DNA of 64,000 bases from positions 1-64,000 of the forward strand of contig JAPUJT010000017.1 of assembly GCA_027296055.1 (NCBI GenBank), written 5' to 3'. The notes under the pieces are model-generated. The model saw nothing but the letters and a program-made list of their open reading frames with translations. It did not search any database and had not been told where the DNA came from. Both the position numbers and the translations under genes were made by a program. Every line of letters begins with the position of its first letter. Within the stretch, counting starts at the first letter, position 1. Source of the DNA: Planctomycetota bacterium (GTDB lineage Bacteria > Planctomycetota > JAPUJT01). Shown in pieces: positions 2,642 through 20,042 of this stretch.

Positions 2642-3022
2642 GCCCGAGTAGTGCGATTGAATTACCTGGCGTTGATGATTCGTCGGCCTTCCCTAACTCC
2701 AAAAAGATGAACGCGGCGAGGCTTTCTTGGGTTCCCGGAGCCCTCATTCCGCCGCTGGCGGAAAGCTGTCGAGAGCCAGGCGGATGATGTCCCCAGCGAC
2801 TTGGGGCTGCCCATGCCCCCGTGCACCGAGGAGCATACGGGCGTTCGCCTGGGCGGAATGGCCGGTTTTGGGTGATCGATGACAGCGGGTTAGGGGTGCG
2901 GAAGTGCAGGCGATCCTAGCCTAGTACCCCCCTGCCAAGACCTAGATCAGAATTTTGGGATGGGGACGGATGGTGAAAGGTCGTCAGCCTGATGGGAAAA
3001 CTGCGATACAACGTCTGCCATG

Positions 3023-3430
3023 TCAGCGACTCTTTTCCGATTGTCCGACGAAATCAAGAGCCTGCTTCTTGGTAAGCACGGAATACCTACAGGGAGTCGT
3101 CCCATAGCACGCCCACTGTTCCCAAAAAACCTCGTCCGTCAGATCGTCCCAGGTCCAGTACAACAATGCACCGTTCTGATCGAATACGTACACTGTGCGA
3201 CCGTCGTTCGGCCACCTATACCCAGTGTTGGCGGTAATGAAAACCCTTCCATCATGAGTGTGGAGTTGAATCTCGCGCGGGTCCGGTTGCCATTCAAGAA
3301 AAGTCTGGAGCGAAACAACCGATGAGGGAGGTACATCCTGCCTGACCCAATACACGAATGTCGCACACGTCCCCAGCAGAACAACAGAGAACGCCAAGAT
3401 GAGTAGCCGCGCGGCATTTCTCACATTCAC
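3023..3430 (-). CDS. small membrane-anchored protein
   Basis: 135 aa, N-terminal TM (AARLLILAFSVVLLGTCATFVYWV). Confidence 0.55.
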   Translation of the reverse strand: MNVRNAARLLILAFSVVLLGTCATFVYWVRQDVPPSSVVSLQTFLEWQPDPREIQLHTHDGRVFITANTGYRWPNDGRTVYVFDQNGALLYWTWDDLTDEVFWEQWACYGTTPCRYSVLTKKQALDFVGQSEKSR

Positions 3431-3492
3431 TAACCTAGGTCAAACACCAAGATTCCGATGTCCCCCCTGTGCGCCGCCTTTCACCATCTAGA

Positions 3493-4707
3493 TCATACTG
3501 ACCCTCCCCACCGCTCGTGGCCGGTTTTGAGTGACCGATGACACAGCCGCTCGACTCCCATAGCCAAGAGGTAGGCCGTAGCAAGTGCAATTATCAGATC
3601 GATGAGGAACTCGACAGGCATGAAACCGTAGTCGCGATAGACGCTGCCGGGCACTATCTTGCTGCCGATGAAGATGAATGGGAATCCCTTCACGACCCCC
3701 TGTACGGCCCCACCACTATAATCTGAGTACAGGTGGCTCCCACTGTCCTTCTGCGGAATGGTACAGAGCGTCACCCATAGCCAGAGTATCGCGAACATCA
3801 ATAGAATGGCTGGGAACCGAGGGAGAAACTTCGGCCATCGGAATCTGATGCTCAGCCATCGGAATCTGATGCTCAGCATCCATCGTAGCACCCGCCGAAA
3901 TCTTAGACTCAGCACCGCCCATTTTTGCACCGGCCGGTCAGTACCCCACGCGAGAACCCAGCCTACGACCACAGCCAACAGAAGGTCCACGAGATACGGG
4001 GTGAGTCGAAACCCGGTGTAGACGGGGTCGGGTCCCCACCACATTGCGTAGAAGGGCAGCGGAAATCCATGCCCGATCCAACCTGACGCGAGCTTGGTTC
4101 TAGGCCCTAGGTAATATGTGCCCCGAAAGTACGTGCAGAGCACAGCCCAGACAACTAGCACTGCAGGCATGAGAAGGATAGCGGGGTATCGAGGCAGGAA
4201 TCCAGCCCATCGGGATCTCGTAGGCGGCTGCCAAAGGATCACCCTGGAGAACGCCAACACCACGACCGCGGCAGTGGTTATCGGAATTGGGGCACCATAA
4301 GTCGCGAGCCCAGCGTAAATTACTAGAAGCCCAGCGATGAGACCCACCGAGAGGGCAAATCCTACTACGTTCACCCACCTCAACACCTTCGCTCTGTGAC
4401 TCCCCACCTCTCCTAGAGAGCGGCGCGCCCCAATCGAGAACCAGAGAGGGCTGAGCAGACCCATCCCAAGGAGAACACTCGACTCCCGATAATCGATAGC
4501 CCAAACAATCAACCCCCGAATAGCGGTCGGGTCCGCACCCCGCCAATGACCGAACACCACGAGAGCTTGCGCCGCGGTCCCGATGACACCGCTCATGACG
4601 TAGCGGAGCGAGAGAGGCGCTTTGAGCCGGATGTAGACGGCCTGGGGCAAAGAGAGGAAAACAACGAAGAGAACTATCAAGCAGATGCCAGCCACTTCTA
4701 GGTCCAT
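3493..4707 (-). CDS. polytopic membrane protein with internal domain duplication
   Basis: 404 aa; two similar blocks RWAGFLPRYPAILLMPAVLVVWAVLCT... and RWPKFLPRFPAILLMFAILWLWVTLCT... Confidence 0.65.
   Translation of the reverse strand: MDLEVAGICLIVLFVVFLSLPQAVYIRLKAPLSLRYVMSGVIGTAAQALVVFGHWRGADPTAIRGLIVWAIDYRESSVLLGMGLLSPLWFSIGARRSLGEVGSHRAKVLRWVNVVGFALSVGLIAGLLVIYAGLATYGAPIPITTAAVVVLAFSRVILWQPPTRSRWAGFLPRYPAILLMPAVLVVWAVLCTYFRGTYYLGPRTKLASGWIGHGFPLPFYAMWWGPDPVYTGFRLTPYLVDLLLAVVVGWVLAWGTDRPVQKWAVLSLRFRRVLRWMLSIRFRWLSIRFRWPKFLPRFPAILLMFAILWLWVTLCTIPQKDSGSHLYSDYSGGAVQGVVKGFPFIFIGSKIVPGSVYRDYGFMPVEFLIDLIIALATAYLLAMGVERLCHRSLKTGHERWGGSV
3834..3875. repeat. two perfect 21-bp tandem copies of gccatcggaatctgatgctca
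   Basis: Direct reading at 3834-3854 and 3855-3875; encodes repeated LSIRFRW. Confidence 0.9.
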
Positions 4708-4963
4708 GAGCCCAGTCTACCAAGCAGGTATCAGCCCCTCCAGCGGACAGGGCGACGTTTGGTTTGGCCGGGGAGCGACAACACAGGGAAACAGCGGGGG
4801 AAGGGCAGATTGAAAGTCGGACGCCCCGCCTATGGGAATGCGAGCCAATGACAAGGAATCCAGCGCCTCCCAGTCAACCCTCCTCGACATGCCCGAATAT
4901 CTCTCGCTAGAATGAGGGGTGTCAGAGGCTCCGTAGTATCATGACGTCCGCAGACTTTCCAAA

Positions 4964-5881
4964 GTGACACCTCCAGCAGATCAGCCGAGAATGCGCCCAA
5001 GCGTGTGGCTCTTCATGCTCGTCATGGGTGGAATGTGCCTCCTCGTGGTTGGAGATAGTCACGCTTGGTTTCTCGACCTGCTTGCAACAGGAACGCTGCA
5101 TAACCTGACCTACTTCCTTGCGTGGGCGATTGTCGGCGCGGTGTACGGCCTCCTGGCCTCATTCATGTGGCTTCGGTGGGCGCGTCAGCTTGGCCGGGTA
5201 AGGCGAGTTCTGGGGATGTGTCTTCTCGTGGCACTGATGATGGCAGGCAGCCAAGTGGCAGCTCGCAGGGTCATGCATCCACTCAACCTGTTCATCGCCA
5301 ACTGTGAATGGGACCAGGATTCTCAGGAGTTCGAAGTTAGCCTCGCATCCACCAGCCAAGCTTTCGCCCAGGCACGGAGACGAGGGAACCTGCAAGTCAT
5401 CGTTTCAGTTGAGGGGCTTTGGTGGAGCCCATCGGAAATGAAATCACCGCAACCGCTCCAGGCAAATGAGGTGGAAGAGTTCGCCGTCGGCGCGCCGGTC
5501 CTTCTGGGTAACCGTCAAGCAATCCCCCACCCGCCGGACGGGTTCGTCGGCGTGCCTTGGCATGTTGGTGAATTCGACGTGCCTTGGAAGCCGAGGGTTT
5601 TCGGGTCTCGTTGGGCCTATATTGCTCGGGTGAGCGCCGCGATTGTGAATCGAGATGGAAAGAGAGTGGGTGGGGAATTGACCCGTTACCGCGTGGGGGA
5701 TAGCTTCCCCCCGCGCGGATGGGATTCAGCCGATCCCCATCGGTCTCGCATAGACGCGTTCATGACTGAAGGGGGAGACTGGCTGATGGACCCTGATCGA
5801 AACCGGGCTCCATTTCAGTTCCGGCCACCGCCGCTGCAGGGTGTCGTCCGCGAGGACGTTCGAGTCAACCCGAGAAAGTAG
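4964..5881 (+). CDS. membrane protein with soluble C-terminal domain
   Basis: 305 aa, N-terminal TMs followed by a hydrophilic domain. Confidence 0.55.
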   Translation: MTPPADQPRMRPSVWLFMLVMGGMCLLVVGDSHAWFLDLLATGTLHNLTYFLAWAIVGAVYGLLASFMWLRWARQLGRVRRVLGMCLLVALMMAGSQVAARRVMHPLNLFIANCEWDQDSQEFEVSLASTSQAFAQARRRGNLQVIVSVEGLWWSPSEMKSPQPLQANEVEEFAVGAPVLLGNRQAIPHPPDGFVGVPWHVGEFDVPWKPRVFGSRWAYIARVSAAIVNRDGKRVGGELTRYRVGDSFPPRGWDSADPHRSRIDAFMTEGGDWLMDPDRNRAPFQFRPPPLQGVVREDVRVNPRK

Positions 5882-6222
5882 TGGCTTCGTAGCGGTGGGC
5901 TCGATGAGAGAAGCCCGCGACCCCGAGCCGAACGGAACCAGCCTTGGTGTGTTGACTCGGGGCCGCGAACACACTATTCAATTGTCTGGCATGGAGATCA
6001 ATGGAAGCGCCAGATGACCATGTCGCCCGCGCTCGCCCCGGCGACGAAAACGCGCTCGCAATCATCCAAGCTGAGGGCCCAGCCACCGGCGCTATTGAGG
6101 ACTGTCCTACTTTCCGTGCATAGGCGTGTATGTTGGAATTCGCCACAGCCTGAAGACAATGAATCCGGGTGCTGTATGCGACTCCGTGAACGAGCGTGCA
6201 TGTTGAAACCGTGAAGGCCGAT

Positions 6223-6582
6223 CTAGCTTGGGATTTCGGCCTTATTTCTCTCTCGAGTCGATGTTGTAAGACGGTCCATCTCGGCCCAGCGCCTATCACG
6301 GGCTCCTCTAACGGCACGGAAGACGATGAAGAGCACGATAGTTATTGGTATCCACGCGAAGCCAGCAATGAGCACGAAGACTATAGCCACCTTCTCGTCA
6401 CCAGTGACGCGTGTGACGCGTGCGAGTAGGACGACCTCGTCACGAGTGACGAGTACGAGTGCGCCGACAAGTCTCCCAATGAACGAGCCAATGAACGAGC
6501 CAAGAAAGTAGGCCAAGACTAAATCGATGGCCCTTCCATTAAAACGTTGTGATGGGAACCGCTCTAGCTCATGGGCTTCCAT
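6223..6582 (-). CDS. small membrane protein
   Basis: 119 aa with TM segments and GSFIGSFIG short repeat. Confidence 0.4.
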   Translation of the reverse strand: MEAHELERFPSQRFNGRAIDLVLAYFLGSFIGSFIGRLVGALVLVTRDEVVLLARVTRVTGDEKVAIVFVLIAGFAWIPITIVLFIVFRAVRGARDRRWAEMDRLTTSTRERNKAEIPS

Positions 6583-7086
6583 CCCTCAACCCTCCAGACG
6601 TAAAAGCGCCACCCATTCGGTCTTCGGAACCTGTAGATCGTCCATGACCCGCTAGGCCCCGGCCCAATTCAACGTTCGGGACACGGGGTAATGTAAGCCC
6701 TGGGGCGCTGCACATCTAGCAAGCCGAGGCTCTACCTCTTTGCGGGGGAATCACTCACATGGCCCGACGGGGTAAGGGCCAACAGAGTCAGACTGGCAGC
6801 GTACACCGCGTGCCTGGTGAGCGGGGACATGGCGACCTCCATCTTGAGCAGATGAGTTGGTAATGGGACTCTCGAGCGGCCCGGATGGTAGGCGGGGCCG
6901 GGGGCCGGGGTCAAGGCCGGGCGAAGCCAGGGGGCCAGGGGCATCGTTTCGCTTGGGACGGGCGCTATGCTATCCCGGATCCGATCCCATTTCCGTTTAT
7001 CCTCGGAAAGAGGCCTAGAGGATCCGCTCTGGGCCTCCTCTCATTCTAGGGAGAAACTTGTCGCCCCTGCCACATCTCCCCAAATT

Positions 7087-7767
7087 CTAATCCTCCTGAC
7101 GGAACGACTCCTGGGATGTGAGTATCGTTGTTCCCCAGTTACTCTTTGTCTCTAAATAGATCTCATAGAAAACGCTAGCTCGGATACTTTCCTCACTGGT
7201 GTTCGCAAGGATTTCGTCGCAAAAACGATAGTCATCCGCACTCCCATCGACAGCCCGCATGACTGCATTGTGATAATCACTCCCCGGGTCGAACTCCACT
7301 CTCGAAGGAAGAAGCAACTCCGCAAAGATGTTCAGTTGTGCCGTATAGAAATGGAGGAGAATGTACATTCTTGTGATCAGCGCCTCCGCCTCTGGCGACA
7401 ACTTGACGGATGGCGGTTCCTGGAGGCTATTCTTGATGGACTCCGAGAAGTCCGTAAATACCTTGGCGAATCGGTCGAGAGCGGCATCGTCCTTCTTTGG
7501 ACGTTCTGTCGCAAACTTGGTGAGTCGATCGAGCTGTCTTCCGGTGATCTTCTGCAACGCATCGGTCTGCGTCTCGATTTTCGTAAGTGAGTTGGAGACG
7601 CGAGACTCCGTTTTCCGTCCAGTGAGATAGAAGACAAGGGCTAGTGCGATCGCTACGAACCCAAGAATGACCGAAACGACACTTGCGATTATGCTCCATA
7701 CCGGCAACGCTGAAACAACCTGGGCAGAATCTTGCAGCACTATAGTACCTCCTTCTTTTCCCCTCAC
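7087..7767 (-). CDS. single-TM coiled-coil-type protein
   Basis: 226 aa: TM (WSIIASVVSVILGFVAIALALVFYL) followed by a helical region TKIETQTDALQKITGRQLDRLTK. Confidence 0.55.
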   Translation of the reverse strand: MRGKEGGTIVLQDSAQVVSALPVWSIIASVVSVILGFVAIALALVFYLTGRKTESRVSNSLTKIETQTDALQKITGRQLDRLTKFATERPKKDDAALDRFAKVFTDFSESIKNSLQEPPSVKLSPEAEALITRMYILLHFYTAQLNIFAELLLPSRVEFDPGSDYHNAVMRAVDGSADDYRFCDEILANTSEESIRASVFYEIYLETKSNWGTTILTSQESFRQED

Positions 7768-7930
7768 GACCCCGGGGACATCGGGCTGCTGTAGCTTCTC
7801 GGCTCCGCATTCCGGTTCAGGGCCATCCTGGTCGACCCAAGATGCGGGCCCTTCCTCTTGGCATGAGAGAGGACGGCCTTACGATTCGCGCCATACGCTA
7901 GAGCAGATCCTCGAGGCGGCGTAGGCGACG

Positions 7931-8677
7931 CTAGCTGGTCCTCCGCCTGGCTGCTTCCCCGCCCCCCTCTCCAACGGGCTTCGGTGGTTCTGGTTGATTC
8001 GTAGGTTCTGCCTCGCGAGCTTGATCAAGCGAGGCGAAGGTCGGTGCGAGTTCATGAAAGTGAGAGACGTCTCGGACGACAGATAGCCCGGGTAGTTCAC
8101 CGCCCGTGGCTCGATTGGGGACATATGCAGAAACGACTCCTACCAGGATGACGGGTGCGCCCTCTTCGGGAGCTAGGAAAAATGCTGGCCCTCCACTGAC
8201 ACCATTGATCGCCACACCGTCTACTAGGTAAGCGCTCTGCCTTTCGAGCCAGGCACTCACTCTCCCTGAAAAAAAGCAGAGGTTGGCGGATGATACTGCC
8301 GGAAAACCAAGCCACGCTAGTTCATTCCCCACCTTAAAATACTTGTCTTTCGGAGCCAGAGTCAGTGGGCTCGAAGGGAGTGGAAGCTGCCCACGGTCGA
8401 AAATGATGGCAGCCGTGTCACGAATTGTATCGAGAAGCACAGCACGTGCGTCGCGCCGAATCACAATTGAGTTGCCAGACCCCTCATGGTCTATGCGGAT
8501 GGGCTCCTCCCAGTAGTGAGCGTGGTCAACAACGTGTGCGGCAGTCGCCACTCCACAGATGTTGCTATTACTGGTGTTCGAGATTAGAAATCCAGTCCCG
8601 GAATTACTCGGAGTCGAGATCCGAACAATGTGTGGCCGTAGATGCTCTACAGCCTGTGGCCAATTGGTCTCTGGCAT
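7931..8677 (-). CDS. trypsin-like serine protease, cytosolic type
   Basis: GTGFLIS, AAHVVDH (His), DTAAIIFD (Asp), GVSGGPAF (Ser); intact S1-like triad; no signal peptide. Confidence 0.75.
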   Translation of the reverse strand: MPETNWPQAVEHLRPHIVRISTPSNSGTGFLISNTSNSNICGVATAAHVVDHAHYWEEPIRIDHEGSGNSIVIRRDARAVLLDTIRDTAAIIFDRGQLPLPSSPLTLAPKDKYFKVGNELAWLGFPAVSSANLCFFSGRVSAWLERQSAYLVDGVAINGVSGGPAFFLAPEEGAPVILVGVVSAYVPNRATGGELPGLSVVRDVSHFHELAPTFASLDQAREAEPTNQPEPPKPVGEGGGEAARRRTS

Positions 8678-8933
8678 GTATTATGTCCTCTCTTGTCGCT
8701 CTCAATGTCTGCCTAATCTAGCATCCTGGGACAGAGGTCATGATGTCCCACCTCCTCCGCCGATTCAACCCCCCGCACCTGGGCTCTCCTCCACCCCCGT
8801 GTCGACATCCCGCTTCCGTAGCTGACCCTCGACGCGATGGGAATGGTCTAGGGTCCCCCGCCCGTGTCACGACAAGGTGGGCCGCTCAGGTCGTATGGGG
8901 AGTTCGTGGCGGATCTTGTAGACCCGGAGTGGC

Positions 8934-10067
8934 GTGGGACCCTATACTGCGGCAGGTCCCGGTCGAGATACTGCTATGAATCGATTCTGGCGTTTCCATA
9001 TCAGTGGCAACAGGCGGCTTCTGACAGCCGTTATCATCGGCGTCTCCGCCTTGCCCTTATCACAATGTCGCCGCGCCCCCTATCAGCCGGACCCCAGGCG
9101 AACACAGACGACCCCGGCATCCGAGGAGGATCGAATTCTCGGTAGAATGGAGGCCATCCAGGCCGAGATCCCTAGGCTGACTCCCCACCTCTCAAGCCGA
9201 TGGAGACGCGCCCGGACGATCTCGGCGCGACGAATTTACGCCCTGCAAGTGGAATACGTAAACCTGGAGCGCAACGCCCTGCAAGTGGAATACTTAAACC
9301 TGGAGCGCAAGTGGGATCTAAAGCGTGTCCGAAAGGCCCTGGACGCCCGCGATAGAGCGGTTGCAGAACAAGAGGAACCCCAGCGAGGAGACAATTCTGA
9401 GTGGGATCAGCTCCGCCAGAGTGAGAACGAGATCTTCGCACGTCGGGATCAGATCGATGATGAACTGTTGAGGACACTCCTAGACTTGAGGGCCCACGCA
9501 CAGCCCAGAATCGGGGAGGTCGGTGAACGCCTGCTTGTAATCTGGGCCGAGGGGGAGGCCATTCGGGAGATGCGAGAGGAGCTATGGGAGATACAGATGA
9601 AACGGCTTATGCGGAGAGTGCAGGTTAAACCTCTGCCTCCCCCTCGACTTCACTGGATACCGTACACGGATGGTAAGGCATATCGTCAAGGACAGGAGCC
9701 GCATACGGAACTGCCACCGGAGGACCAGGTCGATGAACGCCTCAAGGAGATCAACGAATTCGTCAAAGAGATCGACGGTGAGGCTAAAAGGGCCATCCAA
9801 GACTTGAGCACTGACGCAGATCCAACGGCTCAGGCTGCAGGGAAAAAGATGCTTGCACTCGCGGCGGAGTCGGATGCTCTTTCGAAAAGGCATGATGTGA
9901 TCTCGGCCAGGAGGGCGGAGGAGCAGAAGCGGCTCTGGCGGGATCTAGCCGACGGAGAGATCTCCTTGAAAGAGCTGGAGGCGAGGCTCAAGGAGATCGG
10001 GCCACTGTGGGACGTGGTCATCCTGCGCTCGGTTTTGGCCGGTCGATCCCGAACTCGCGGGCGATGA
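8934..10067 (+). CDS. lipoprotein-like, helical/coiled-coil protein
   Basis: 377 aa; true start probably MNRFWRF; hydrophobic stretch ending LPLSQC; charged helical body. Confidence 0.55.
   Translation: MGPYTAAGPGRDTAMNRFWRFHISGNRRLLTAVIIGVSALPLSQCRRAPYQPDPRRTQTTPASEEDRILGRMEAIQAEIPRLTPHLSSRWRRARTISARRIYALQVEYVNLERNALQVEYLNLERKWDLKRVRKALDARDRAVAEQEEPQRGDNSEWDQLRQSENEIFARRDQIDDELLRTLLDLRAHAQPRIGEVGERLLVIWAEGEAIREMREELWEIQMKRLMRRVQVKPLPPPRLHWIPYTDGKAYRQGQEPHTELPPEDQVDERLKEINEFVKEIDGEAKRAIQDLSTDADPTAQAAGKKMLALAAESDALSKRHDVISARRAEEQKRLWRDLADGEISLKELEARLKEIGPLWDVVILRSVLAGRSRTRGR
9238..9309. repeat. 36-bp in-frame tandem duplication
   Basis: acgccctgcaagtggaatac(g/t)taaacctggagcgca twice with one mismatch; encodes ALQVEY(V/L)NLERN. 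Confidence 0.9.
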
Positions 10068-10371
10068 GATCCGCCACGGTCTGAATCTCCGCCTCGCCGG
10101 TAATCATCCCTGAGTCGTGGTGTTGACTGAGGAGGCGGGCGAAGTCCTCAGAGTTGGCATCTCGCCACTGGATGATGATCCTCTGCTCCCCTGGGTTCAG
10201 GTCCACCTCGCCCTTGAGGATGCCCAATATGATCGGCTTGGCCTCCCGGAGCCTGGCCAGGGTGCCAGGGTCCAGGACACCAGCAGGCCCCCGGTAGGTG
10301 ACGGCCTCCCCCTTGAGGGTGAAGGTCACCCCCCGGCCCCGCAGCTCCAAGAAGAGGTCGACGGCGGTCAT
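10018..10371 (-). CDS. TubC N-terminal docking-like domain protein
   Basis: MTAVDLFLELRGRGVTFTLKGEAVTYRGPAGVLDPGTLARLREAKPIILGIL matches the TubC_N pattern often found next to MGE helicase/primase genes. Confidence 0.55.
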   Translation of the reverse strand: MTAVDLFLELRGRGVTFTLKGEAVTYRGPAGVLDPGTLARLREAKPIILGILKGEVDLNPGEQRIIIQWRDANSEDFARLLSQHHDSGMITGEAEIQTVADLIAREFGIDRPKPSAG

Positions 10372-11993
10372 AGCTGCCCCTCCACTTCAAGCTGTTCTGG
10401 TGGCTGTTCCGCGGTGTCATCGGGAACAGGGCGCGGAACAGGGCTATCTTCAACCTCGTCAACGGGTTGCGCTTGCCTGTTCTGCTGTTCTTCCCCTAGG
10501 GGTGAGGAGGGAGAACAGGGGGGTGATTCCGAGGTCTCTTCCTCGCCCGAGAGGAGGCTCGTCTCGGCTGGCGGAGCCTCCTCTTTGGCCTTCGAAGCCT
10601 CCGCCTTGGCCTTCTCGTCGTGCCTAGATTTCAGTTCATACTTCCCCTCTTTCTCCTTCACCAGAACCTTCACGAGAACCTTGTTCTCAACCATCATCAG
10701 GAGGTGCTTTCTTATCGTTGGCCGCGCCGGTTTCCTTCCCTCCAGGAAGTAATCGAGCGCAGTCCAGACACCCTTCGGCGTCATGGCCCCACGTTCCTTG
10801 ATCGCATCGATAATGGCTGCATCTACGGTGACTTGCTGGGTTTGGCTGGCCTCGCCGTCAAGGCTGTACGTCCGAGTGGGGAAGTTGAACTTGAGGGTGT
10901 AGTCCTTCTCTTCGACGCCACGACCCTGGACGTTGAGTGTTGTTCCCCCATCTGAGCGACCGAGATGGAGAATCATGTCAGACGCACCCGCCAGGGCTTG
11001 GCTTCCGAGGGGAGCATGGATTGGGTCCCCCTCTTTCGCTTTCTTCCCCGAGTGGTGTATCAGCACGACAGCCAGGTGGTGGCGATCGCCAACGCGCTTG
11101 AGTGCTGTCAGGTCGCCGTAGATCGTCTCGTAATCTTTGCGGTCCATATTGGGGGAGGAGACTCTCCCGTAGCAGTCAATGACGACGAGCTTCGCCTGGG
11201 GATGATTGTGTATCCAGCCCTCAAGCACATCGGGGAGTCCCCGGTTTATGGGTGGGACGTCTAGCGTGATCAGTCCGATTCGAAGCCCCACCGCACGCGG
11301 GATGCCCCCGTCCTCCGTGGACATCGCCTCGAAGTCAGTCTTGATCGTCGCTTCCGGGTCCTCCAGGCTGACGAGAAGCACGTCGCCTTTCTCTACGTCC
11401 TCCCCGAGTGCTACACCCCCCCGCGCCACAGCGAGGGAGACGCCGCGCATTAGTGTGCTCTTTCCCTTCTTCGGATCGGCCGTGATGAGGGTAAGTCCTT
11501 CGCGGATGAAGTTGGGAACGATCCATTGAATCGGGGGGGGCGGGTTCTGGATCACCTCCTGTAGTGTGCGAATCTTGGGGCGGTGCTTCATCCGGGAGAG
11601 ACGCATACCAAGCCGGATCGTCTGTTCCTCTGTGTCGTAGAACTTCGCGAGCCGGGCAACAACAGCGTCCTCCCTGTCCTTTACGTCACGTTGGTTGTTC
11701 GACTGGCGGAAGTCAAAATCACCACCGCTCTCATCGTCTAGGCGATCTTTGGAGGGATTGAGGAGGGCTTTGGAGCTGCTACCAATTTCGGACAAGAGGT
11801 CTGCATCCGACGCGGTCGCTTTCGCCTTCCCTCCCGTTTCCGACTGGTCCGCGTGTGGCTCCTTGCCGTTTCTCCCCGCTTCGTCGTCAAGATGGAAAGG
11901 GACGGTCCCTTCCTTGCTGAAGTCTGCGGCAGACAAGTCCCCATCGCGCTGGAAGTCGCCCAGATCCTTCGCCTTCTGTTCAGAGTCTTTCAA
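10368..11993 (-). CDS. RepA-like AAA_25 family ATPase/helicase
   Basis: Walker A ADPKKGKSTLM, Walker B LVVIDCYG, LIHHSGK motif; overlaps neighbours by 4 bp. Confidence 0.8.
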   Translation of the reverse strand: MKDSEQKAKDLGDFQRDGDLSAADFSKEGTVPFHLDDEAGRNGKEPHADQSETGGKAKATASDADLLSEIGSSSKALLNPSKDRLDDESGGDFDFRQSNNQRDVKDREDAVVARLAKFYDTEEQTIRLGMRLSRMKHRPKIRTLQEVIQNPPPPIQWIVPNFIREGLTLITADPKKGKSTLMRGVSLAVARGGVALGEDVEKGDVLLVSLEDPEATIKTDFEAMSTEDGGIPRAVGLRIGLITLDVPPINRGLPDVLEGWIHNHPQAKLVVIDCYGRVSSPNMDRKDYETIYGDLTALKRVGDRHHLAVVLIHHSGKKAKEGDPIHAPLGSQALAGASDMILHLGRSDGGTTLNVQGRGVEEKDYTLKFNFPTRTYSLDGEASQTQQVTVDAAIIDAIKERGAMTPKGVWTALDYFLEGRKPARPTIRKHLLMMVENKVLVKVLVKEKEGKYELKSRHDEKAKAEASKAKEEAPPAETSLLSGEEETSESPPCSPSSPLGEEQQNRQAQPVDEVEDSPVPRPVPDDTAEQPPEQLEVEGQL

Positions 11994-13000
11994 AGTCCTG
12001 CCCCTTCGCTTACGAGTTTCCTGATTTGGCGAATGTCACTACAGCGGTCGCGGAGACTTCCCGAAATGAGGTCTCGATACCGTCTGCCCGTCATGTCGGG
12101 ATCGGTGCCGATGATGATGCTGGTGTCGGTTGGAACGCGTGCTGCGATCTCGCGGGTCCAACTCCCCGACACGATGCCGATGACCGCGGGCGCGTTCTGA
12201 TTGGCGTCGGAGAATTTCGTTGCAGTTGCGAGAAAATCTATCGAACCTTCGACGATTATCAGGCCCACGTCGCGAACATAGTCGGCAGCGTCCGATTCGT
12301 CTGTGAGGGTCTCACCGGAGAGCATCAAACGAGCGAGCGAATCCGCCAAGATCAACCCGCTCACCGCATGGCCTGTGGGCGATAATTCCTTCAGCGCCCC
12401 GACTTCGAGACGACGGCCGCGCAGGCTACGGGTTCTTCCCTCTACGTCGGCCATCGGCACGATGAGCCGGGCGCCCATAGCCACCCACGAACCGCCACGA
12501 GTTACAGCCCACGGCGGCAACTCGATATCGACAGGCAAGACTCTGGCGAGATCGAGAGTCTCAACCATGGACGGATCGATCTTCCGTTCTTCCTGTAACC
12601 AGCGTGATACAGCTGGGTCGTCACAGACCGGGCGACATAATTCCCAGAGCGCCTTCACTTCCTCGGCTGGCGGATACTCTGGTGGCGGAGCGGGTGTGCG
12701 GCGGTATGGCCTGGGTGCAGGGGTGGCGAAGTCGGTCGTTGTGATGCCGATGAGCTTCGCTAGGTGAATTTCATTTCCGCGAAGTGCGCAGGCTCTACAG
12801 ATAAAGAGTCCCATTTCAGAATTCGCTGGCTCCGGGGTGAAGTGGATTGAGGGGTGTAGGTCCGGATGGTCCGGTGCGAGGCAATGGAAGACAACAGACT
12901 TTCCTCGCCACCGACCGTTGTAGTCGCTCATCAATATCGCAACGATTCTCTCGGCTAGAGCTGTCATAAAATCCCCACCGTCCGTTCGATGGCCATCCAC
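11990..13000 (-). CDS. DNA primase-like protein (CHC2 zinc finger plus Toprim)
   Basis: N-terminal C-H-C-C zinc-finger spacing (FHCLAPDH...FICRACALRG) and Toprim IIVEGSIDFLA...IIIGTDPDMTG. Confidence 0.8.
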   Translation of the reverse strand: MDGHRTDGGDFMTALAERIVAILMSDYNGRWRGKSVVFHCLAPDHPDLHPSIHFTPEPANSEMGLFICRACALRGNEIHLAKLIGITTTDFATPAPRPYRRTPAPPPEYPPAEEVKALWELCRPVCDDPAVSRWLQEERKIDPSMVETLDLARVLPVDIELPPWAVTRGGSWVAMGARLIVPMADVEGRTRSLRGRRLEVGALKELSPTGHAVSGLILADSLARLMLSGETLTDESDAADYVRDVGLIIVEGSIDFLATATKFSDANQNAPAVIGIVSGSWTREIAARVPTDTSIIIGTDPDMTGRRYRDLISGSLRDRCSDIRQIRKLVSEGAGL

Positions 13001-13230
13001 AAAGCCGATTCGACCTCGATGTCTCTCAGGTTCAGGCCAAGGAAATCTCGGAGCTTGTAAACTCGGAAGCGCGTTGAGTCTGGATCGAAACCGGACTCTA
13101 GGAGGGATATCGCCCTGTCATGGAGAATCGTCATGCTGGCCGCGGTTCTTCCGCTAGTCATGGCGGTTTCCCTGGCAATGTTATCTCTTGCGATAAGTTT
13201 GATTGTTCGGTAGGATTCGATTGTCGTCAC
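12964..13230 (-). CDS. hypothetical protein
   Basis: 88 aa, overlaps the primase start; consistent operon order. Confidence 0.45.
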   Translation of the reverse strand: MTTIESYRTIKLIARDNIARETAMTSGRTAASMTILHDRAISLLESGFDPDSTRFRVYKLRDFLGLNLRDIEVESALWMAIERTVGIL

Positions 13231-13270
13231 TCCGTTGGCGGGGGCTCCACACCCCCGTTAGATATTCAGA

Positions 13271-13615
13271 TCAGCCCATGCGGGTTTGTTTCCTGCGTGG
13301 GCTGGTTGCTTTTTTGGCACTACGCTGAGGCTGTTCGTTCAGGAAGTCGATATGCCGTGGATCGGCGGTCGGGAGTGATGCCGATTCGCCAGCGGCGTGA
13401 TGGGATGTGTCTGGCGCAAGGCTAGGCGCCAAGCTCGGTTCGACTCGCTGTTCTTCGAGCCATCTCCCAAAGTCGCGAGCCAGTAGAGCGCGACGTTTTC
13501 CGAGTTTGAACGTAAGGCTCTGTAGGCCAGGATGGCGACTGAGGAAAAGACGAAGCGAGGACTTCTTGAGCTTCAGTGCGTCACAAATATCTTGGGTGAA
13601 CAATATCTCGTTCAT
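13271..13615 (-). CDS. small DNA-binding (HTH-like) protein
   Basis: 114 aa, MNEILFTQDICDALKLKKSSLRLFLSRHPG; overlaps upstream ORF by 4 bp. Confidence 0.45.
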   Translation of the reverse strand: MNEILFTQDICDALKLKKSSLRLFLSRHPGLQSLTFKLGKRRALLARDFGRWLEEQRVEPSLAPSLAPDTSHHAAGESASLPTADPRHIDFLNEQPQRSAKKATSPRRKQTRMG

Positions 13616-13887
13616 GCTTCAACTTGGGTGGTGGTCTTCTCCACCAGACGGGATACGTCGGCCTCCCATACACGCAGCCTAAGTCGTCTGTAGGGATTCT
13701 TTCCCTTCTCACTCACAGCGACTCCGCGCAGTTTCCCTAGAAGGATCAGATTCTCGATCCCCTGAATATCAGTACGCAGTCTTTTGGCGGCGTCCTTTGG
13801 GGTCAAAAGGCGCAGCTCCTCGGACTGTCTCGGCATGAAGGTTCTCCTTTCGTCGTAAGCCTCGACTCTGGCCAGATTTTGCCGCAT
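13612..13887 (-). CDS. excisionase/MerR-like HTH protein
   Basis: LLTPKDAAKRLRTDIQGIENLILLGKLRG...RVWEADVSRLVE. Confidence 0.5.
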   Translation of the reverse strand: MRQNLARVEAYDERRTFMPRQSEELRLLTPKDAAKRLRTDIQGIENLILLGKLRGVAVSEKGKNPYRRLRLRVWEADVSRLVEKTTTQVEA

Positions 13888-14010
13888 TCCTTAGATCGCG
13901 GGTTGGTCCAGCTTTTATGGCAGCGAAAAGCTGGACCACTGGCTTTGTCGTATGTGGCGACTATTGGCGGGGATATGTTGGTGTGTTGGTCGCGGTGGGC
14001 AGAATGCGGG

Positions 14011-15627
14011 CTAGTCAGCCTGGTCGTCTTCTGGGTCGGAATCAGCGCGGTCGACTACAATTAGAGGCTGCCTATGCTCTTGGATTTTCCTCTTGCTCGC
14101 AGCCTCGATCCGTTTCTTGATTTCCTCTTCCGATTTGCTTTCCTCTTCCGATTCGCTTTCTTCCTTCTTGGTTTCCGATGAGGGTCCGGGGCATAGCTCA
14201 TTTGCGATCCAGCCCTCGCTGTACTCTCCGGTCATATATCTGGGGTCAGCGCGGTACTCGGATGCCATATTCTCGTTTGATTCCCGGCCGACAAGGCGGT
14301 ACGGCCAGTCCGTTCCGAAACCGTAATGCTCCCATGTCTTCTTGAATCTCCCAAGGCAGGACGCATCAGTACCGCCGAAGCGTTTTTCCTCAATTACGTA
14401 GTCATGGATCTGCAATGCTCGTTCCCTTATCCGGCGAGCCCGTTCACTGCCATTGAGCACGTAGAAATGGGAAAGGGGGCCGTACTTTTCCAGCACTTCA
14501 CGAAGAGCTGCCACATACTTGAGTTGTACTTTCCATCTTCGAGTAGTTTTCTCTTCAGGGCCGTCCACCTTCTTCTGGATTTCCCTGATGTGGCTATCGT
14601 AGAACTCCTCCATTGCCCTCTTGAAATCTGTCAGGCTAAGTCTCCAGTCAAGCGCGATCGTAATGTGGCTTTGTGTTCTGAGCGTAGGAACGTGGACCGC
14701 AACTCCGTCTTGCTTCGGGGCGTCGGCCTCGAACGCGCTGATCATCTTTTGGATGCTAGCTTCCCGTTCATCGTCCCTTCTCTGCTGTTTTTCAATCTTG
14801 CGAAAGCGATCATTCAGCTTCTCATCGTACTCTTCCTTTTCGCGAGCGTACTTCGCCATCTCTGGAGAGTGCTCATCCTGGGTGCATCCCGGAGGTGGCG
14901 TGGGCTCTATTGGACGGGGGTCTAGCATGGGTTCGTCTGGGCGCGGCCCAACTATGGCTATTGCATCGTCGCGATTACGGCGGCAGGCAATGGCTTTTGC
15001 AACGATAGCCCAAGATTCAACGGGGAGCGTCATCGTCTCTGACGGGTCCCCGGTCCACGCCTCCGCAACGGATGGTTGCTCTCCAGGTACGTCGGGTGGA
15101 AGAGCATGGGCGGTGGGGCCGTGGTCGAAGAGGTCGAAGACTCCCATGCCTGATTCGAGCGCCTTGGGGTCTAGCGCGAAGAGAATCGGCCGGACATGGG
15201 ATAGGGTGATTGGAAAAGTCTCGGGGCCTTGAGGCAATGGGCAGGGTATCTGCGGGTTGGTGTGGATGATCGGCTCCACACCTTCATTGGCCAGCAACCA
15301 ATCGCTACAGACGTTTGGACTCAACAGAAACGGCAGGAATCCGTACTCGAGTGCCAACAGATCGGATCGGGGCTCATTGATTTGGTACAGGGTGGCGTTG
15401 TCCATGAATGGCTCCCAGACTGCCCGGTATCTGGGATTTATACAGAGCGCCTCCCAGTAGACCGCCTGCATGTAATGGTGGGGTTTGGCTTTTGCGAGTC
15501 TCTTGCTTGGAGACTTCTTAGGCTTCCGCGGCGTGGACTTCTTGGCGTGGACTGTCCGAGGTTTGCGACTGGTCGACTTCTTCTTTGTTCCGCGCGCCGT
15601 AGATTTATGGGATGATTTCCGTTCCAT
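14011..15627 (-). CDS. hypothetical protein with Lys/Ser/Pro-rich histone-H1-like N-terminus and acidic C-terminus
   Basis: 538 aa; KSTARGTKKKSTSRKPRTVHAKKSTPRKPKKSPSKRLAKAKP...EESESEEESKSEEE. Confidence 0.6.
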   Translation of the reverse strand: MERKSSHKSTARGTKKKSTSRKPRTVHAKKSTPRKPKKSPSKRLAKAKPHHYMQAVYWEALCINPRYRAVWEPFMDNATLYQINEPRSDLLALEYGFLPFLLSPNVCSDWLLANEGVEPIIHTNPQIPCPLPQGPETFPITLSHVRPILFALDPKALESGMGVFDLFDHGPTAHALPPDVPGEQPSVAEAWTGDPSETMTLPVESWAIVAKAIACRRNRDDAIAIVGPRPDEPMLDPRPIEPTPPPGCTQDEHSPEMAKYAREKEEYDEKLNDRFRKIEKQQRRDDEREASIQKMISAFEADAPKQDGVAVHVPTLRTQSHITIALDWRLSLTDFKRAMEEFYDSHIREIQKKVDGPEEKTTRRWKVQLKYVAALREVLEKYGPLSHFYVLNGSERARRIRERALQIHDYVIEEKRFGGTDASCLGRFKKTWEHYGFGTDWPYRLVGRESNENMASEYRADPRYMTGEYSEGWIANELCPGPSSETKKEESESEEESKSEEEIKKRIEAASKRKIQEHRQPLIVVDRADSDPEDDQAD

Positions 15628-15932
15628 CGTGGCGTCTCACGGTGGTTGCAGCTCGGCTCCCCCGCCAGGGGGCCGGGCTTTCTTTTTAGCTGCCGGCTCT
15701 ATGCTTGGGCAAGCCGGTGAACTCTTGACTCGCTCCTGATTCCGATCCTTCTGATATTCTCCGTGATCGGCAAAAAGCCATCAACGGCGGGCCATTCCAT
15801 AACCGCAGGACTGTCAGGCCGGCTACACGAACGGCTACACTAAATCGATTCCAATCGCTGCACAATGTATGCGCAATGGATCGTGCCGAACGATCCAACT
15901 CCTTGGCCATATTGCCGTTATCGCTATTTCCT

Positions 15933-16008
15933 TGGCACGGCAGGCGGGGCTCGAACCCGCACCTTCTGGTTTTGGAGACCAGCGCTCTGCCTCTCGAGCT
16001 CCTGCCGT
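15933..16008 (-). tRNA. tRNA-Trp(CCA)
   Basis: Hand-folded: ACGGCAG/CTGCCGT acceptor, loop CTCCAAA, T-loop TTCGAGC, encoded CCA; position 8 is G. Confidence 0.85.
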
Positions 16009-16054
16009 ATGCCCTGGGTATCCCACCCCCCGGGAGACCCGAGCTCCGTGTCTC

Positions 16055-16131
16055 TGGCCCGACAGACGGGACTCGAACCCGCACGCTCCGGAGCGACAGT
16101 CCGGCGCTCTGGCCAATTGAGCTACTGCCGG
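16055..16131 (-). tRNA. tRNA-Asp(GTC)
   Basis: CCGGCAG/CTGTCGG acceptor, loop CTGTCGC, TTCGAGT, CCA. Confidence 0.9.
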
Positions 16132-16133
16132 TT

Positions 16134-16212
16134 TGGTGCGGGGAGTGGGGGTCGAACCCACAAATTCTCCACGCACTCAGCGTGGCGGCTTTTCCAGTTT
16201 GCCCATCCCCGC
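16134..16212 (-). tRNA. tRNA-Leu(GAG), short variable loop
   Basis: GCGGGGA/TCCCCGC acceptor, loop CTGAGTG, 7-nt variable loop AGAATTT, TTCGACC, A73, CCA. Confidence 0.8.
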
Positions 16213-16214
16213 AT

Positions 16215-16290
16215 TGGTGCGGCGGGTGGGACTCGAACCCACACAATTCAGCTTAAGAGGCTGGTGCCCCACCCGTTGGGCGACCGCCGC
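16215..16290 (-). tRNA. tRNA-Lys(CTT)
   Basis: GCGGCGG/CCGCCGC acceptor, loop CTCTTAA, TTCGAGT, CCA. Confidence 0.9.
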
Positions 16291-16293
16291 ATC

Positions 16294-16342
16294 GCCTCGG
16301 AATCGAACCGCGCTGGTGCCTCGCCGCGCTCGGCTTCGAGGC
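16294..16342 (-). other. tRNA-like remnant (TTCGATT loop inside a 6-bp closing stem)
   Basis: gcctcg (16294-16299) / cgaggc (16337-16342) enclosing GCGCGGTTCGATTCC; no complete cloverleaf. Confidence 0.35.
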
Positions 16343-16353
16343 CTCCACAACAG

Positions 16354-16428
16354 TGGAGCACCCGGCGGGATTCGAACCCGCGTAGACGGATTTGCAGTCC
16401 GTCGCCTCACCGCTCGGTCCACGGGTGC
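16354..16428 (-). tRNA. tRNA-Cys(GCA)
   Basis: GCACCCG/CGGGTGC acceptor, loop CTGCAAA, TTCGAAT, CCA. Confidence 0.9.
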
Positions 16429-16474
16429 ATCAATCATCACTCCGCGACTCTGGCGGGGCTCCGCGTCTCTGGGG

Positions 16475-16544
16475 TGGTGCGGTGGGTACTGCCCCCACTT
16501 TCTCCGGTTCACAGCCGGACGCATTACTTTTATGCTACGCCCAC
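16475..16544 (-). tRNA. aberrant tRNA-His(GTG), possibly a pseudogene
   Basis: Anticodon arm TCCGG-CTGTGAA-CCGGA and CCA present; T-loop reads GGCAGTA and the 3' acceptor strand is shortened (CGC-A-CCA). Confidence 0.6.
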
Positions 16545-16559
16545 CATGGATCTCTCCGG

Positions 16560-16619
16560 TCCGGCTCCCGAGAATCGAAGCCGACGCCTCTCGGTGATCG
16601 GCCGTGCCCTTGGAGCCGG
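16560..16619 (-). other. 60-nt D-armless tRNA-like element
   Basis: Perfect 7-bp acceptor CCGGCTC/GAGCCGG, A73, T-loop TTCGATT, 3-bp anticodon-like arm CGG-CCGATCA-CCG; no D arm. Confidence 0.4.
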
Positions 16620-16628
16620 CGCTTACCT

Positions 16629-16704
16629 TGGCGCGGCGGGTGGGAGTCGAACCCACACTCTGCGGCTTAGAAGGCCGCTGCTCTTCCAGTTGAGCTACCG
16701 CCGT
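16629..16704 (-). tRNA. tRNA-Arg(TCT)
   Basis: Loop CTTCTAA, TTCGACT, CCA; A1/C72 mismatch. Confidence 0.85.
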
Positions 16705-16706
16705 TC

Positions 16707-16791
16707 TGGCGGAAGGCCTGGGATTCGAACCCAGATGGCCAGAGGCCGGCGGTTTTCGAGACCGCTGCGTTACCAGTTACGCTAACCTTCC
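16707..16791 (-). tRNA. tRNA-Ser(CGA)
   Basis: Loop CTCGAAA, long variable arm, TTCGAAT, G73 CCA. Confidence 0.9.
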
Positions 16792-16810
16792 CTTGGCCGT
16801 GCACGGCTAA

Positions 16811-16883
16811 TGCGGCGAGCGGGATTCGAACCCACACAGTTCGGATTAAAAATCCGATGCCCGACTCGTTGGGCGACCGCCGC
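16811..16883 (-). tRNA. tRNA-Lys(TTT)
   Basis: GCGGCGG/TCGCCGC acceptor, loop TTTTTAA, TTCGAAT; CCA not encoded. Confidence 0.9.
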
Positions 16884-16897
16884 TTCGTTCGTTTCGG

Positions 16898-16970
16898 CGA
16901 GGCAGGGAGGGGTCGAACCTCCACCACCGGTTTCGGAGACCGGTCATCCTTTCCGTTAGACGACTGCCTC
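16898..16970 (-). tRNA. tRNA-Arg(CCG)
   Basis: GAGGCAG/CTGCCTC acceptor, loop CTCCGAA, TTCGACC; CCA not encoded. Confidence 0.9.
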
Positions 16971-16972
16971 GT

Positions 16973-17048
16973 TGGTGGGGCAGAGAGGATTCAAACCTCT
17001 ATCTGTCGGTTCGTAGCCGACGAATCCTGTTCGTTAGACGACTGCCCC
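16973..17048 (-). tRNA. tRNA-Arg(ACG)
   Basis: GGGGCAG/CTGCCCC acceptor, loop CTACGAA, T-loop TTTGAAT, CCA. Confidence 0.9.
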
Positions 17049-17049
17049 T

Positions 17050-17124
17050 TGGTTGGCCCGCCAGGATTCGCACCTGGATTTCGCGGTTCAAAGCCGCGCT
17101 TCTTGCCTATTAGATGACAGGCCA
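17050..17124 (-). tRNA. tRNA-Gln(TTG)
   Basis: TGGCCTG/CGGGCCA acceptor (U1-A72), loop CTTTGAA, T-loop TGCGAAT, CCA. Confidence 0.88.
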
Positions 17125-17130
17125 TCTGTC

Positions 17131-17206
17131 TGGCTGGCCCCCCAGGGCTCGAACCTGGACTCTTCCGCTTAACAGGCGGACGCTCTACCCATTGAGCTAG
17201 AGGCCA
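17131..17206 (-). tRNA. tRNA-Asn(GTT)
   Basis: TGGCCTC/GGGGCCA acceptor, loop CTGTTAA, TTCGAGC, G73 CCA. Confidence 0.88.
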
Positions 17207-17207
17207 A

Positions 17208-17291
17208 TGGCGGAGAGGGTGGGATTCGAACCCACAGAGCTTTCGCTCACCCGGCTAGCAACCGGGCTCCTTGCCGTTCGGTCACCTCTCC
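17208..17291 (-). tRNA. tRNA-Ser(GCT)
   Basis: GGAGAGG/CCTCTCC acceptor, loop TTGCTAG, long variable arm, TTCGAAT, CCA. Confidence 0.9.
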
Positions 17292-17293
17292 CT

Positions 17294-17367
17294 TGGAGCA
17301 CCGACCGGGAATCGAACCCGGATCACCGGCATGGCAAGCCGGCGCTCTTCCACTGAGCTACCGGTGC
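17294..17367 (-). tRNA. tRNA-Gly(GCC)
   Basis: GCACCGG/TCGGTGC acceptor, loop TTGCCAT, TTCGATT, CCA. Confidence 0.92.
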
Positions 17368-17378
17368 GTCCGATACAC

Positions 17379-17450
17379 TGGCAGGGCCACCGGGAATCGA
17401 ACCGCTGCTCCCCTCGGGTCTGAGCCCGAGGCTCAGCCTCGGGGTCGAAG
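17379..17450 (-). other. tRNA 3'-half (GGTTCGATTCCCGGTGGCCCTGCCA) attached to a GC-rich palindromic stretch; tRNA remnant
   Basis: Canonical T-loop, 3' T-stem, acceptor strand TGGCCCT, G73 and CCA, but no complementary AGGGCCA 5' acceptor; upstream is CCCCGAGGCTGAGCCTCGGGCTCAGACCCGAGGGG. Confidence 0.55.
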
Positions 17451-17527
17451 ACAGGGCAAAATTCGACCAGGCCAGCCATGAGCGAGAGGGGGAAGCACTC
17501 GGTAGATTGCTTCCCCGTCGAGTCGAA

Positions 17528-17603
17528 TGGTGGTGACGGCTGGAGTCGAACCAGCAACGCCGCGGCTTTTCGGGCCACCGCTCTTCCGTTGAGCTACGTC
17601 ACC
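17528..17603 (-). tRNA. tRNA-Phe(GAA), C33 variant
   Basis: GGTGACG/CGTCACC acceptor, loop CCGAAAA, TTCGACT, A73 CCA. Confidence 0.85.
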
Positions 17604-18116: not shown

Positions 18117-20042
18117 TTATTCCTCGACCACCGACTCTGGAGTCCGGGCAAGATGCTCGTCGAGGAACTTGACGATCGCCGAGTAACCGCGCTCCTGATT
18201 TTCCTTCTTCACGAAGCCGTGCCCTTCATCTTCGAACACCACGTAGGAGACCGGCACACCGTTCTTGCGGACCGCCTCCACGATCTCGTCCGACTCGATC
18301 TTGAGCACGCGTGGATCGTTGGCGCCCTGCAGCACCATCAAGGGCTTCTTGATCCTCTCGGAATGAAAGAGGGGAGACTTCGCCTTGAAGAACTCCTCAT
18401 CGTCGAAGTCGCCCATCTCCTTCTCGAGGTAGGCTCGGCGCGAGGCCCACCAGGGCGGAATGCTCTGAACGGTGCGATGCCAGTTGGATATGCCGAAGAG
18501 ATCGATCCCCACCTCGAAGGCATCCGGCCGAAACGTGAGGGCGGCCAGGGTCATATAACCCCCATAGCTCCCGCCGATGATGCCGATTCGATCTTTGTCG
18601 ACATACTCCAGGTCCCCGAGCATCTTCTTGCTGGCCACGACGTCATCCAGGTCCGCTTCCCCGTGTTTCCTGTCGTCGAGGTGAAAGAACGTCTTGCCGT
18701 AGCCGCTGCTGCCTCGATTGTTGATCGCGTAGATGACGTAGCCGCGGTTACAGAGCAGCTGGAGCAGGGCGCTGTACCCGATGCGGCTCTGTCCGCCAGG
18801 TCCGCCGTGCACCATCACGAGCGCGGGCACGGGACGATCCGGAGAGGCCTGATGAGGCTTGTAGAGAATGCCCGGTATCTCCACGCCATCGTACGAATCA
18901 AACCGTACCACCTCCCCCTCCACCAGGTCGGTCGGCTCGATGCTCCGGTTGAGGGACTGGGTGAGTTGCAGTGGTGATGTCTCGCCCATCTCGTAATAGA
19001 AAAGGTCGCGCGGCATACGGCTGCTGCTCATGTAGAAGGCCATGTGCTTCTCGTCCCGGGATAGACCAACGGAGGTGATGTCGGCCCCGGGGAGAGACGG
19101 CAGATCCACTCGTTCCATCGTCGCGGCATCGTAGAGCCGCAGTTCGGTCGAGGCATCGTTGTTGATGCCGACGACCATGTACTTTCCCTTCTTGGAGAAG
19201 TAGGCGTACGAGACGTCCCAGTCGACCTTCAGAACCTGTTCGACACCACCCTCCTCGAGCCCGTGGCGCACCAGGTACTTGAACTCGTCGTTCTTGTCCG
19301 TGAGATAGTAGAGATGCTTGCCGTCGGGGCTGAAGGTCTGGGGAGAGTTCTGCGCCGCCTCGGGATCGTCCGTGATGAGCGTCATCTCACCCTTGTCGCG
19401 ATCGAAGAGGTAGATATCGCTGTCGGCGTTCGTGACCGTCTTGGAGAGGGCCAACGTCCGTTTGTCTGGCGATATCGCGCTGAAGTTATATCCCTCCTCG
19501 TTCTTGTAGATCATCTCGCGTTTGTAGGTCTTGACGTCGTACTCGTAGGCGTCGAAGAATCGCTCGTCACGTTCGTTGGTGCCCACGAAGAACGACTTGT
19601 CGTCCTGAGCCCATCCATAGAATGATGCCTTGAGGGTCTCACCTGGTGTGAGGTCGGTGGCCGTTCCATCTGCCTCGCGAACGTAGAGGTGGTTCAGCTC
19701 GTTGCCGCCCCTGTCGCTGGTATAGAGGAATCTCTCATCTGTGGGGAAATAGGCGACGGCAAAGATCGAATCGTCCTTCGAGTCGGTTAGTCGTTCCGGC
19801 TCACCTCCGTGAGTGGAGATGGCATAGGCGTTGTATATCCCCGTTGCGTTGCTGCTCACCAGAAGCTTGGTATTGTCGGGAGAGAACGAGCTGCCCGAGA
19901 AGGTGGTCGTGCCCAGAAAGTCCTGGATCGTGTACCGCTTCACATCGCGGATCTGAGCGCGGTTTTGAGCGCAGCCGAAGGTGGATGCCGCCAGGATCGA
20001 GAACAGGACGATCGTGGATCTTGCGAGTGTACCCTTGGTCAT
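18117..20042 (-). CDS. S9 family prolyl oligopeptidase-like peptidase, lipoprotein
   Basis: Beta-propeller repeats, GIIGGSYGGYMT nucleophile, GPGGQS, DEGHGF catalytic His region, signal/lipobox AASTFGC. Confidence 0.9.
   Translation of the reverse strand: MTKGTLARSTIVLFSILAASTFGCAQNRAQIRDVKRYTIQDFLGTTTFSGSSFSPDNTKLLVSSNATGIYNAYAISTHGGEPERLTDSKDDSIFAVAYFPTDERFLYTSDRGGNELNHLYVREADGTATDLTPGETLKASFYGWAQDDKSFFVGTNERDERFFDAYEYDVKTYKREMIYKNEEGYNFSAISPDKRTLALSKTVTNADSDIYLFDRDKGEMTLITDDPEAAQNSPQTFSPDGKHLYYLTDKNDEFKYLVRHGLEEGGVEQVLKVDWDVSYAYFSKKGKYMVVGINNDASTELRLYDAATMERVDLPSLPGADITSVGLSRDEKHMAFYMSSSRMPRDLFYYEMGETSPLQLTQSLNRSIEPTDLVEGEVVRFDSYDGVEIPGILYKPHQASPDRPVPALVMVHGGPGGQSRIGYSALLQLLCNRGYVIYAINNRGSSGYGKTFFHLDDRKHGEADLDDVVASKKMLGDLEYVDKDRIGIIGGSYGGYMTLAALTFRPDAFEVGIDLFGISNWHRTVQSIPPWWASRRAYLEKEMGDFDDEEFFKAKSPLFHSERIKKPLMVLQGANDPRVLKIESDEIVEAVRKNGVPVSYVVFEDEGHGFVKKENQERGYSAIVKFLDEHLARTPESVVEE

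Follow-up and report, generated by a model that had tools for sequence, protein, structure and literature searches.

ICEAfe1 of Acidithiobacillus ferrooxidans holds a large redundant tRNA array inside an ICE. The tRNA array units of mycobacteria, present in chromosomes, plasmids and phages (PMC5966550, PMC12803027), comprise at least 20 tRNAs at a density of at least two per kb, with redundant anticodons and low identity to the dispersed set, and some of them, like that of a Mycolicibacterium alvei plasmid, include tRNA-Leu genes with a short variable arm. The trn operon of Nostoc/Anabaena PCC 7120, carried by the plasmid pCC7120delta (PMC10272220), is a redundant second set of 24 genes (as called by ARAGORN) on one strand; it has a known regulator, TrcR, is repressed in normal growth and is induced under translational stress by translation-targeting antibiotics, survival being favoured. 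Phage tRNA clusters, such as that of Stenotrophomonas phage Moby, also gather numerous redundant and divergent tRNAs, and there are reports that phage tRNAs escape defences that cleave tRNA (eLife 2023 PMC10264068; PMC11555353).

A locus sharing traits with each of these systems is found in a Planctomycetota assembly of 206 contigs and 5.26 Mb (91.7% complete, 5.6% contaminated). The phylum was taken from rplA, whose nearest named relatives come from Planctomycetota MAGs with 59-60% identity. The window analysed here is the 64,000-nucleotide stretch C79:1-64000, and its positions 15933-17603 hold 16 tRNA genes in 1.67 kb. ARAGORN called 14 of them, every one on the minus strand, and RF00005, at a cut-off of 29 bits, recovered the same 14 plus a tRNA-Gln and a weakly scoring tRNA-His, so that the count, identities and coordinates of the original prediction were right. 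In minus-strand order, beginning with the flanking gene, the features are:

18117..20042, minus strand: flanking S9 peptidase (profile match)
17528..17603, minus strand: tRNA-Phe(GAA), first gene of the array (ARAGORN; RF00005 58 bits)
17379..17530, minus strand: spacer behind tRNA-Phe, ending in a truncated tRNA 3' half at 17379-17410 (DNA comparison)
17294..17367, minus strand: tRNA-Gly(GCC) (ARAGORN)
17208..17291, minus strand: tRNA-Ser(GCT) (ARAGORN)
17131..17206, minus strand: tRNA-Asn(GTT) (ARAGORN)
17053..17124, minus strand: tRNA-Gln(TTG) (RF00005 51 bits and sequence)
16973..17048, minus strand: tRNA-Arg(ACG) (ARAGORN)
16896..16970, minus strand: tRNA-Arg(CCG) (ARAGORN)
16811..16883, minus strand: tRNA-Lys(TTT) (ARAGORN)
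16707..16791, minus strand: tRNA-Ser(CGA) (ARAGORN)
16629..16704, minus strand: tRNA-Arg(TCT) (ARAGORN)
16474..16543, minus strand: degenerate tRNA-His(GTG), T-loop lost, possible pseudogene (RF00005 33 bits and sequence)
16354..16428, minus strand: tRNA-Cys(GCA) (ARAGORN)
16215..16290, minus strand: tRNA-Lys(CTT) (ARAGORN)
16134..16212, minus strand: tRNA-Leu(GAG), short 7-nt variable loop (ARAGORN)
16055..16131, minus strand: tRNA-Asp(GTC) (ARAGORN)
15933..16008, minus strand: tRNA-Trp(CCA), integration target of the element (ARAGORN and direct repeat)
15929..15983, minus strand: attL, 55-nt direct repeat (96%) with attR (DNA comparison)

The anticodon of the tRNA-Gln, a gene not called by ARAGORN, was read by eye as TTG. 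The tRNA-His, likewise not called by that program, has a degenerate, non-canonical T-loop and is probably in decay. All window tRNAs but this one, 15 of 16, have an intact cloverleaf. Between the array genes lie truncated tRNA-like fragments, at least three in number and recognized by eye, at ~16291-16349, ~16558-16620 and ~17379-17410. They would be signs of gene loss inside the array and, together with the degenerate tRNA-His, indicate an array that is partly decayed.

A terminator at 17816-17783 parts the S9 peptidase gene from the array, and no recognizable sigma-70 promoter stands upstream of tRNA-Phe, although host promoters may differ from that consensus. The 79 nt directly behind tRNA-Phe (17452-17530), a terminator-like hairpin among them, share 91% identity with C181:25405-25483, directly behind the tmRNA, and this sequence has only these two copies in the genome. 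Readings of the C181 match as another array or as an attachment site were rejected, as it is the 3' flank of the tmRNA; the shared flank is possibly what an older recombination event at ssrA left behind.

The array does not end at tRNA-Trp. When the genome was searched at the DNA level with the array as query, a 51-bp stretch at C78:12271-12321 matched the 3' end region of this gene with 98% identity, and directly behind it come five tRNAs in the same sense: Glu(CTC), Pro(CGG), Val(TAC), Thr(CGT), and Met(CAT). Since the reverse complement of window positions 1-122 is identical to C78:1-122, both contigs overlap exactly at their ends and the intervening DNA can be read from end to end as an element of 28.1 kb, bordered on either side by a copy of the 3' half of tRNA-Trp; the two copies form a direct repeat of 55 bp (96%), with attR at C78:12271-12324 (DNA comparison). 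Immediately before attR lies a gene for a 397-aa tyrosine recombinase (L017:10954-12147, PF00589). When the flanks are joined in silico, a single intact tRNA-Trp results, with tRNA-Glu directly next to it and the array contiguous. Its order is Phe-Gly-Ser-Asn-Gln-Arg-Arg-Lys-Ser-Arg-His-Cys-Lys-Leu-Asp-Trp, then the insertion, then Glu-Pro-Val-Thr-Met, and other genes follow beyond.

Without the element, the array thus comprises 16 genes from the window and five from C78, 21 in ~2.1 kb or ~10 per kb (19 by ARAGORN alone, 21 with the Gln and His found through Rfam). In the 19 ARAGORN-called genes (14 in the window and five on C78), 98.7% of the stem pairs are standard, which excludes a chance origin of the calls. 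The supposed lack of Met applies to the window half, which has no elongator-type Met, and not to the C78 half, where Met(CAT) is the last gene. Because tRNAs are found outside both attL and attR, the array is one unit of at least 21 genes that is older than the insertion. The tRNA 3' direct repeat at both ends and the integrase next to one of them are the hallmarks of integrative elements that use a tyrosine recombinase to target a tRNA gene, and, as read from the sequence, the anatomy is that of an ordinary element of this kind whose target gene has array genes on both sides.

The window and C78 each hold part of the element. The features of the window part are:

1..15932, no strand assigned: left part of the element, the rest being C78:1-12321 through the 122-bp overlap (overlap and direct repeat)
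14011..15627, minus strand: 538-aa ORF, no family match (ORF list, profile scans)
13612..13887, minus strand: HTH_17, weakly excisionase-like protein (Pfam 0.007; PHROG excisionase 0.0016)
11990..13000, minus strand: Toprim primase-like protein (profile scans)
10368..11993, minus strand: AAA_25 RepA/DnaB-like ATPase (Pfam 1.9e-22; PHROGs)
10018..10371, minus strand: TubC_N-domain protein (Pfam 8.1e-6)
7931..8677, minus strand: trypsin-like peptidase, element cargo (Pfam Trypsin_2 5.2e-9)

These genes follow one another inward from attL and give way to proteins without assignment. The C78 part encodes related membrane proteins, a HipA-like kinase and a DUF3037 protein, an ArdC-N-like anti-restriction protein, clamp-loader-like proteins, and recombinases, among them a second tyrosine recombinase of 200 aa (9623-10225). 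The genes for the HipA-like kinase and the DUF3037 protein adjoin each other (L017:4752-6503) and may constitute an accessory pair, of the toxin-antitoxin or defence kind. Several related membrane proteins, encoded in both parts (window 3493-4707 and L017:773-3693) and perhaps also just beyond the element (L017:12914-13303), carry a LPRFPAILLVPAVL-like motif that recurs among them; those that were scanned had no match in Pfam. No relaxase or type IV secretion genes were found among the element ORFs scanned with Pfam and PHROGs (some small ORFs left out), and no PHROG match to phage structural genes (capsid, portal, terminase, tail) in the ORFs scanned, although distant proteins could escape such a scan. 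The GC content of the element is 57.6-57.7%, versus 61.8% for the flank and 60-62% in the flanking genes.

No relatives of this element were found, either by its integrase among genome contigs or by its AAA_25 protein among viral contigs. Within the genome itself, 26 integrase matches were listed, several of them pairs of ~235-aa and ~400-aa proteins; short tyrosine recombinases of ~235 aa recur on C78, C186, C31, C97, C45, and C47, several with a ~400-aa partner. The like build of several such pairs makes it probable that related elements of one integrative-element family are repeated in the genome. At C97:28107-28171, next to a PF00589 integrase, 45 nt match the 5' end region of the housekeeping tRNA-Trp at 98% identity, and a second element may target tRNA-Trp there too.

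With at least 20 contiguous genes, at least two tRNAs per kb, and redundant anticodons below 90% identity, the array is to be classed, by the published definition (PMC5966550), as a tRNA array unit, a kind already known. The description of a dense and redundant array, of a type known from plasmids, ICEs, and phages, abutting a mobile element with a replication module was therefore accurate. Unlike the mycobacterial units, this one belongs to a planctomycete, lies within a chromosomal contig and is interrupted by an integrative element; moreover, no protein genes stand between the window tRNAs and no HNH endonuclease was seen. It differs from the trn operon of Nostoc in that the latter is plasmid-borne, with its own known regulator and induction. 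As in ICEAfe1, a large redundant array is tied to an integrative element, but here the element is inside the array, and there the reverse. In contrast to phage Moby, whose tRNA-Leu has a longer variable arm (12 nt), no phage structural genes accompany this array in the ORFs scanned, and its best phage matches are short (10% or less of the query), with 72-74% identity.

All 21 array anticodons are also found among the 42 dispersed tRNAs of the genome, which represent 40 distinct anticodons, and the identity between array and dispersed genes of the same anticodon is 58-83%. Two possibilities were rejected on these grounds: a recent duplication of host tRNAs, given that the top same-anticodon identity is 83%, and a role as the host's main tRNA set, given that each anticodon has a dispersed copy. 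The dispersed set shows 96.0% standard stem pairs, against the 98.7% of the array. Changes in the anticodon loop were examined as a sign of nuclease escape and rejected, since the ~18 differences from the dispersed copies at 76 non-anticodon loop positions do not exceed the overall divergence.

The explanation that we regard as probable, well short of certain, is that a chromosomal array of at least 21 genes, a reserve tRNA set kept by selection, was invaded at tRNA-Trp by a 28.1-kb element that owns the replication module. The tyrosine-recombinase element recombined at the anticodon-to-3' part of the array tRNA-Trp, rebuilding an intact tRNA-Trp at its left end and moving the last five tRNAs 28 kb off. 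This structural part can be read off the sequence. The functional part draws on the trn operon of Nostoc: by that analogy, the array would be a redundant, structurally divergent second set, held by selection for conditions of tRNA-pool damage or translation inhibition, and the element would use it as a landing site only. Against a reserve set speak the partial decay of the array, the lack of a recognizable sigma-70 promoter before tRNA-Phe, and the insertion itself, which probably cuts the last five tRNAs off from the promoter of the array; an operon under strong selection should resist such an event. Transcription of the displaced tRNAs may now come from the integrase side.

The main rival, in our estimate unlikely though to be taken seriously, is that the array arrived long ago on a different mobile element, be it a phage, a plasmid or an ICE, and persists in the chromosome as a functionless relic undergoing decay. 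Its low identity to the housekeeping tRNAs, the degenerate tRNA-His and tRNA fragments, and the existence of plasmids and phages with similar arrays agree with such an origin, as does the distribution of arrays in Planctomycetota, which is patchy over genera. Of 395 Planctomycetota genomes, 43 contain a match to a pattern of three T-loops spaced like those of neighbouring tRNAs. The figure is rough, because the pattern takes in the ordinary Thr-Tyr-Gly-Thr cluster beside tuf and misses many array genes (the array of the window itself gives only one match). ARAGORN, applied to 20 of the matched places, found 11-32 tRNAs in 13 of them, and genomes with an array hold 57-78 tRNAs, versus 37-46 in those without.

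Against the relic stand the intact cloverleaves of all but one of the window tRNAs and the well-paired stems of the array, together with a comparison made in other Planctomycetota rather than in the lineage of this array. The arrays of the sister pair G207/G385 are syntenic and have conserved flanks; their tRNAs are 96% identical and their spacers 67%, which amounts to purifying selection. Another pair from one genus (G116/G147) likewise has common flanking genes, and across the genera of family f47 the array order appears collinear by eye, with flanking genes not conserved within ~8 kb. For the flanks of the window array, no genome with the same order was found among relatives, only one distant paralogous match. 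The original prediction had taken as its refutation the same array in chromosomes lacking the replication module and serving there as the main host set; comparable arrays do exist in chromosomes without this module, while the array is a redundant second set and not the main one.

Codon usage was compared over 5,905 element codons and 9,069 flanking codons. It is improbable that the array boosts the tRNA supply for host-preferred codons in fast growth: its anticodons chiefly match the GC-ending codons favoured by the flanking genes, as this would require, but Ala, Ile, and Tyr are missing, each species has one copy, and the array tRNAs are divergent rather than copies of major isoacceptors. Compensation by the array for the codon bias of the element, which had also been proposed, is not supported either. 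The codons over-used by the element (GTT, CTA, ATA, CCA, CTT, and ACT) mostly lack matching anticodons in the array, and codons served by the array rise less in the element than the others (mean log2 ratio 0.09 versus 0.42, p = 0.057), so that codon compensation was rejected on these counts.

The link drawn between array and replication module does not hold either, since the module belongs to the inserted element, with its tRNA-Trp direct repeats, the integrase at the far boundary, and five tRNAs beyond; their relation is that of insert and target. That the array is cargo of this element, supplying its own tRNAs or resisting host tRNA nucleases, is hardly credible despite their adjacency on the same strand and the arrays that plasmids, ICEs, and phages do carry, for the array lies on the outer sides of attL and attR rather than between them and continues past the far one, the codons over-used by the element are mostly unserved, and in 13 other Planctomycetota array genomes no PF00589 integrase was found near the array on its contig among the matches listed.

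The most surprising by-product of the analysis is that tRNA-Leu genes lacking a long variable arm recur in the arrays of three phyla. The array tRNA-Leu has a variable region of 7 nt, versus 15-17 nt in the four dispersed tRNA-Leu. In other planctomycete clusters, this region is 5 nt in 18 of 27 tRNA-Leu, while the Ser and Tyr tRNAs retain at least 12 nt. All four tRNA-Leu of the Nostoc trn array have variable loops of 5-6 nt, and two of three are short-armed in the M. alvei plasmid array. Thus, in Planctomycetota, Nostoc, and Mycolicibacterium, array-borne short tRNA-Leu have 5-7 nt against the usual 13-17. Besides the window copy, such genes are found at L082, L083, L086, L087, L089, L090, L097, L183, and L184. 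As seen by eye, many of them share across phyla the D-arm GTAGCCCAA..GG.AGAGGC, which the window copy lacks. No paper describing short-arm tRNA-Leu in arrays was found in the open-licence literature.

A tentative conjecture, possible but doubtful, is that these arrays form a second tRNA set shared horizontally across Planctomycetota, Cyanobacteria, and Actinomycetota, marked by the short-arm tRNA-Leu, often with GTAGCCCAA..GG.AGAGGC, and kept because its altered tRNA bodies would escape nucleases that attack normal tRNAs; the window copy would be a member turned integration site. The short-arm tRNA-Leu provides a sequence marker with which both the shared origin and the nuclease escape can be tested.

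A literature search for tRNA array units in Planctomycetota found no report of them. They are common in this phylum, and in one sister pair they prove to be chromosomal, inherited, and under selection. Moreover, the invaded array indicates that mobile elements found next to tRNA arrays can be parasites of those arrays instead of their carriers, a point that bears on claims that such arrays are mobile-element cargo.
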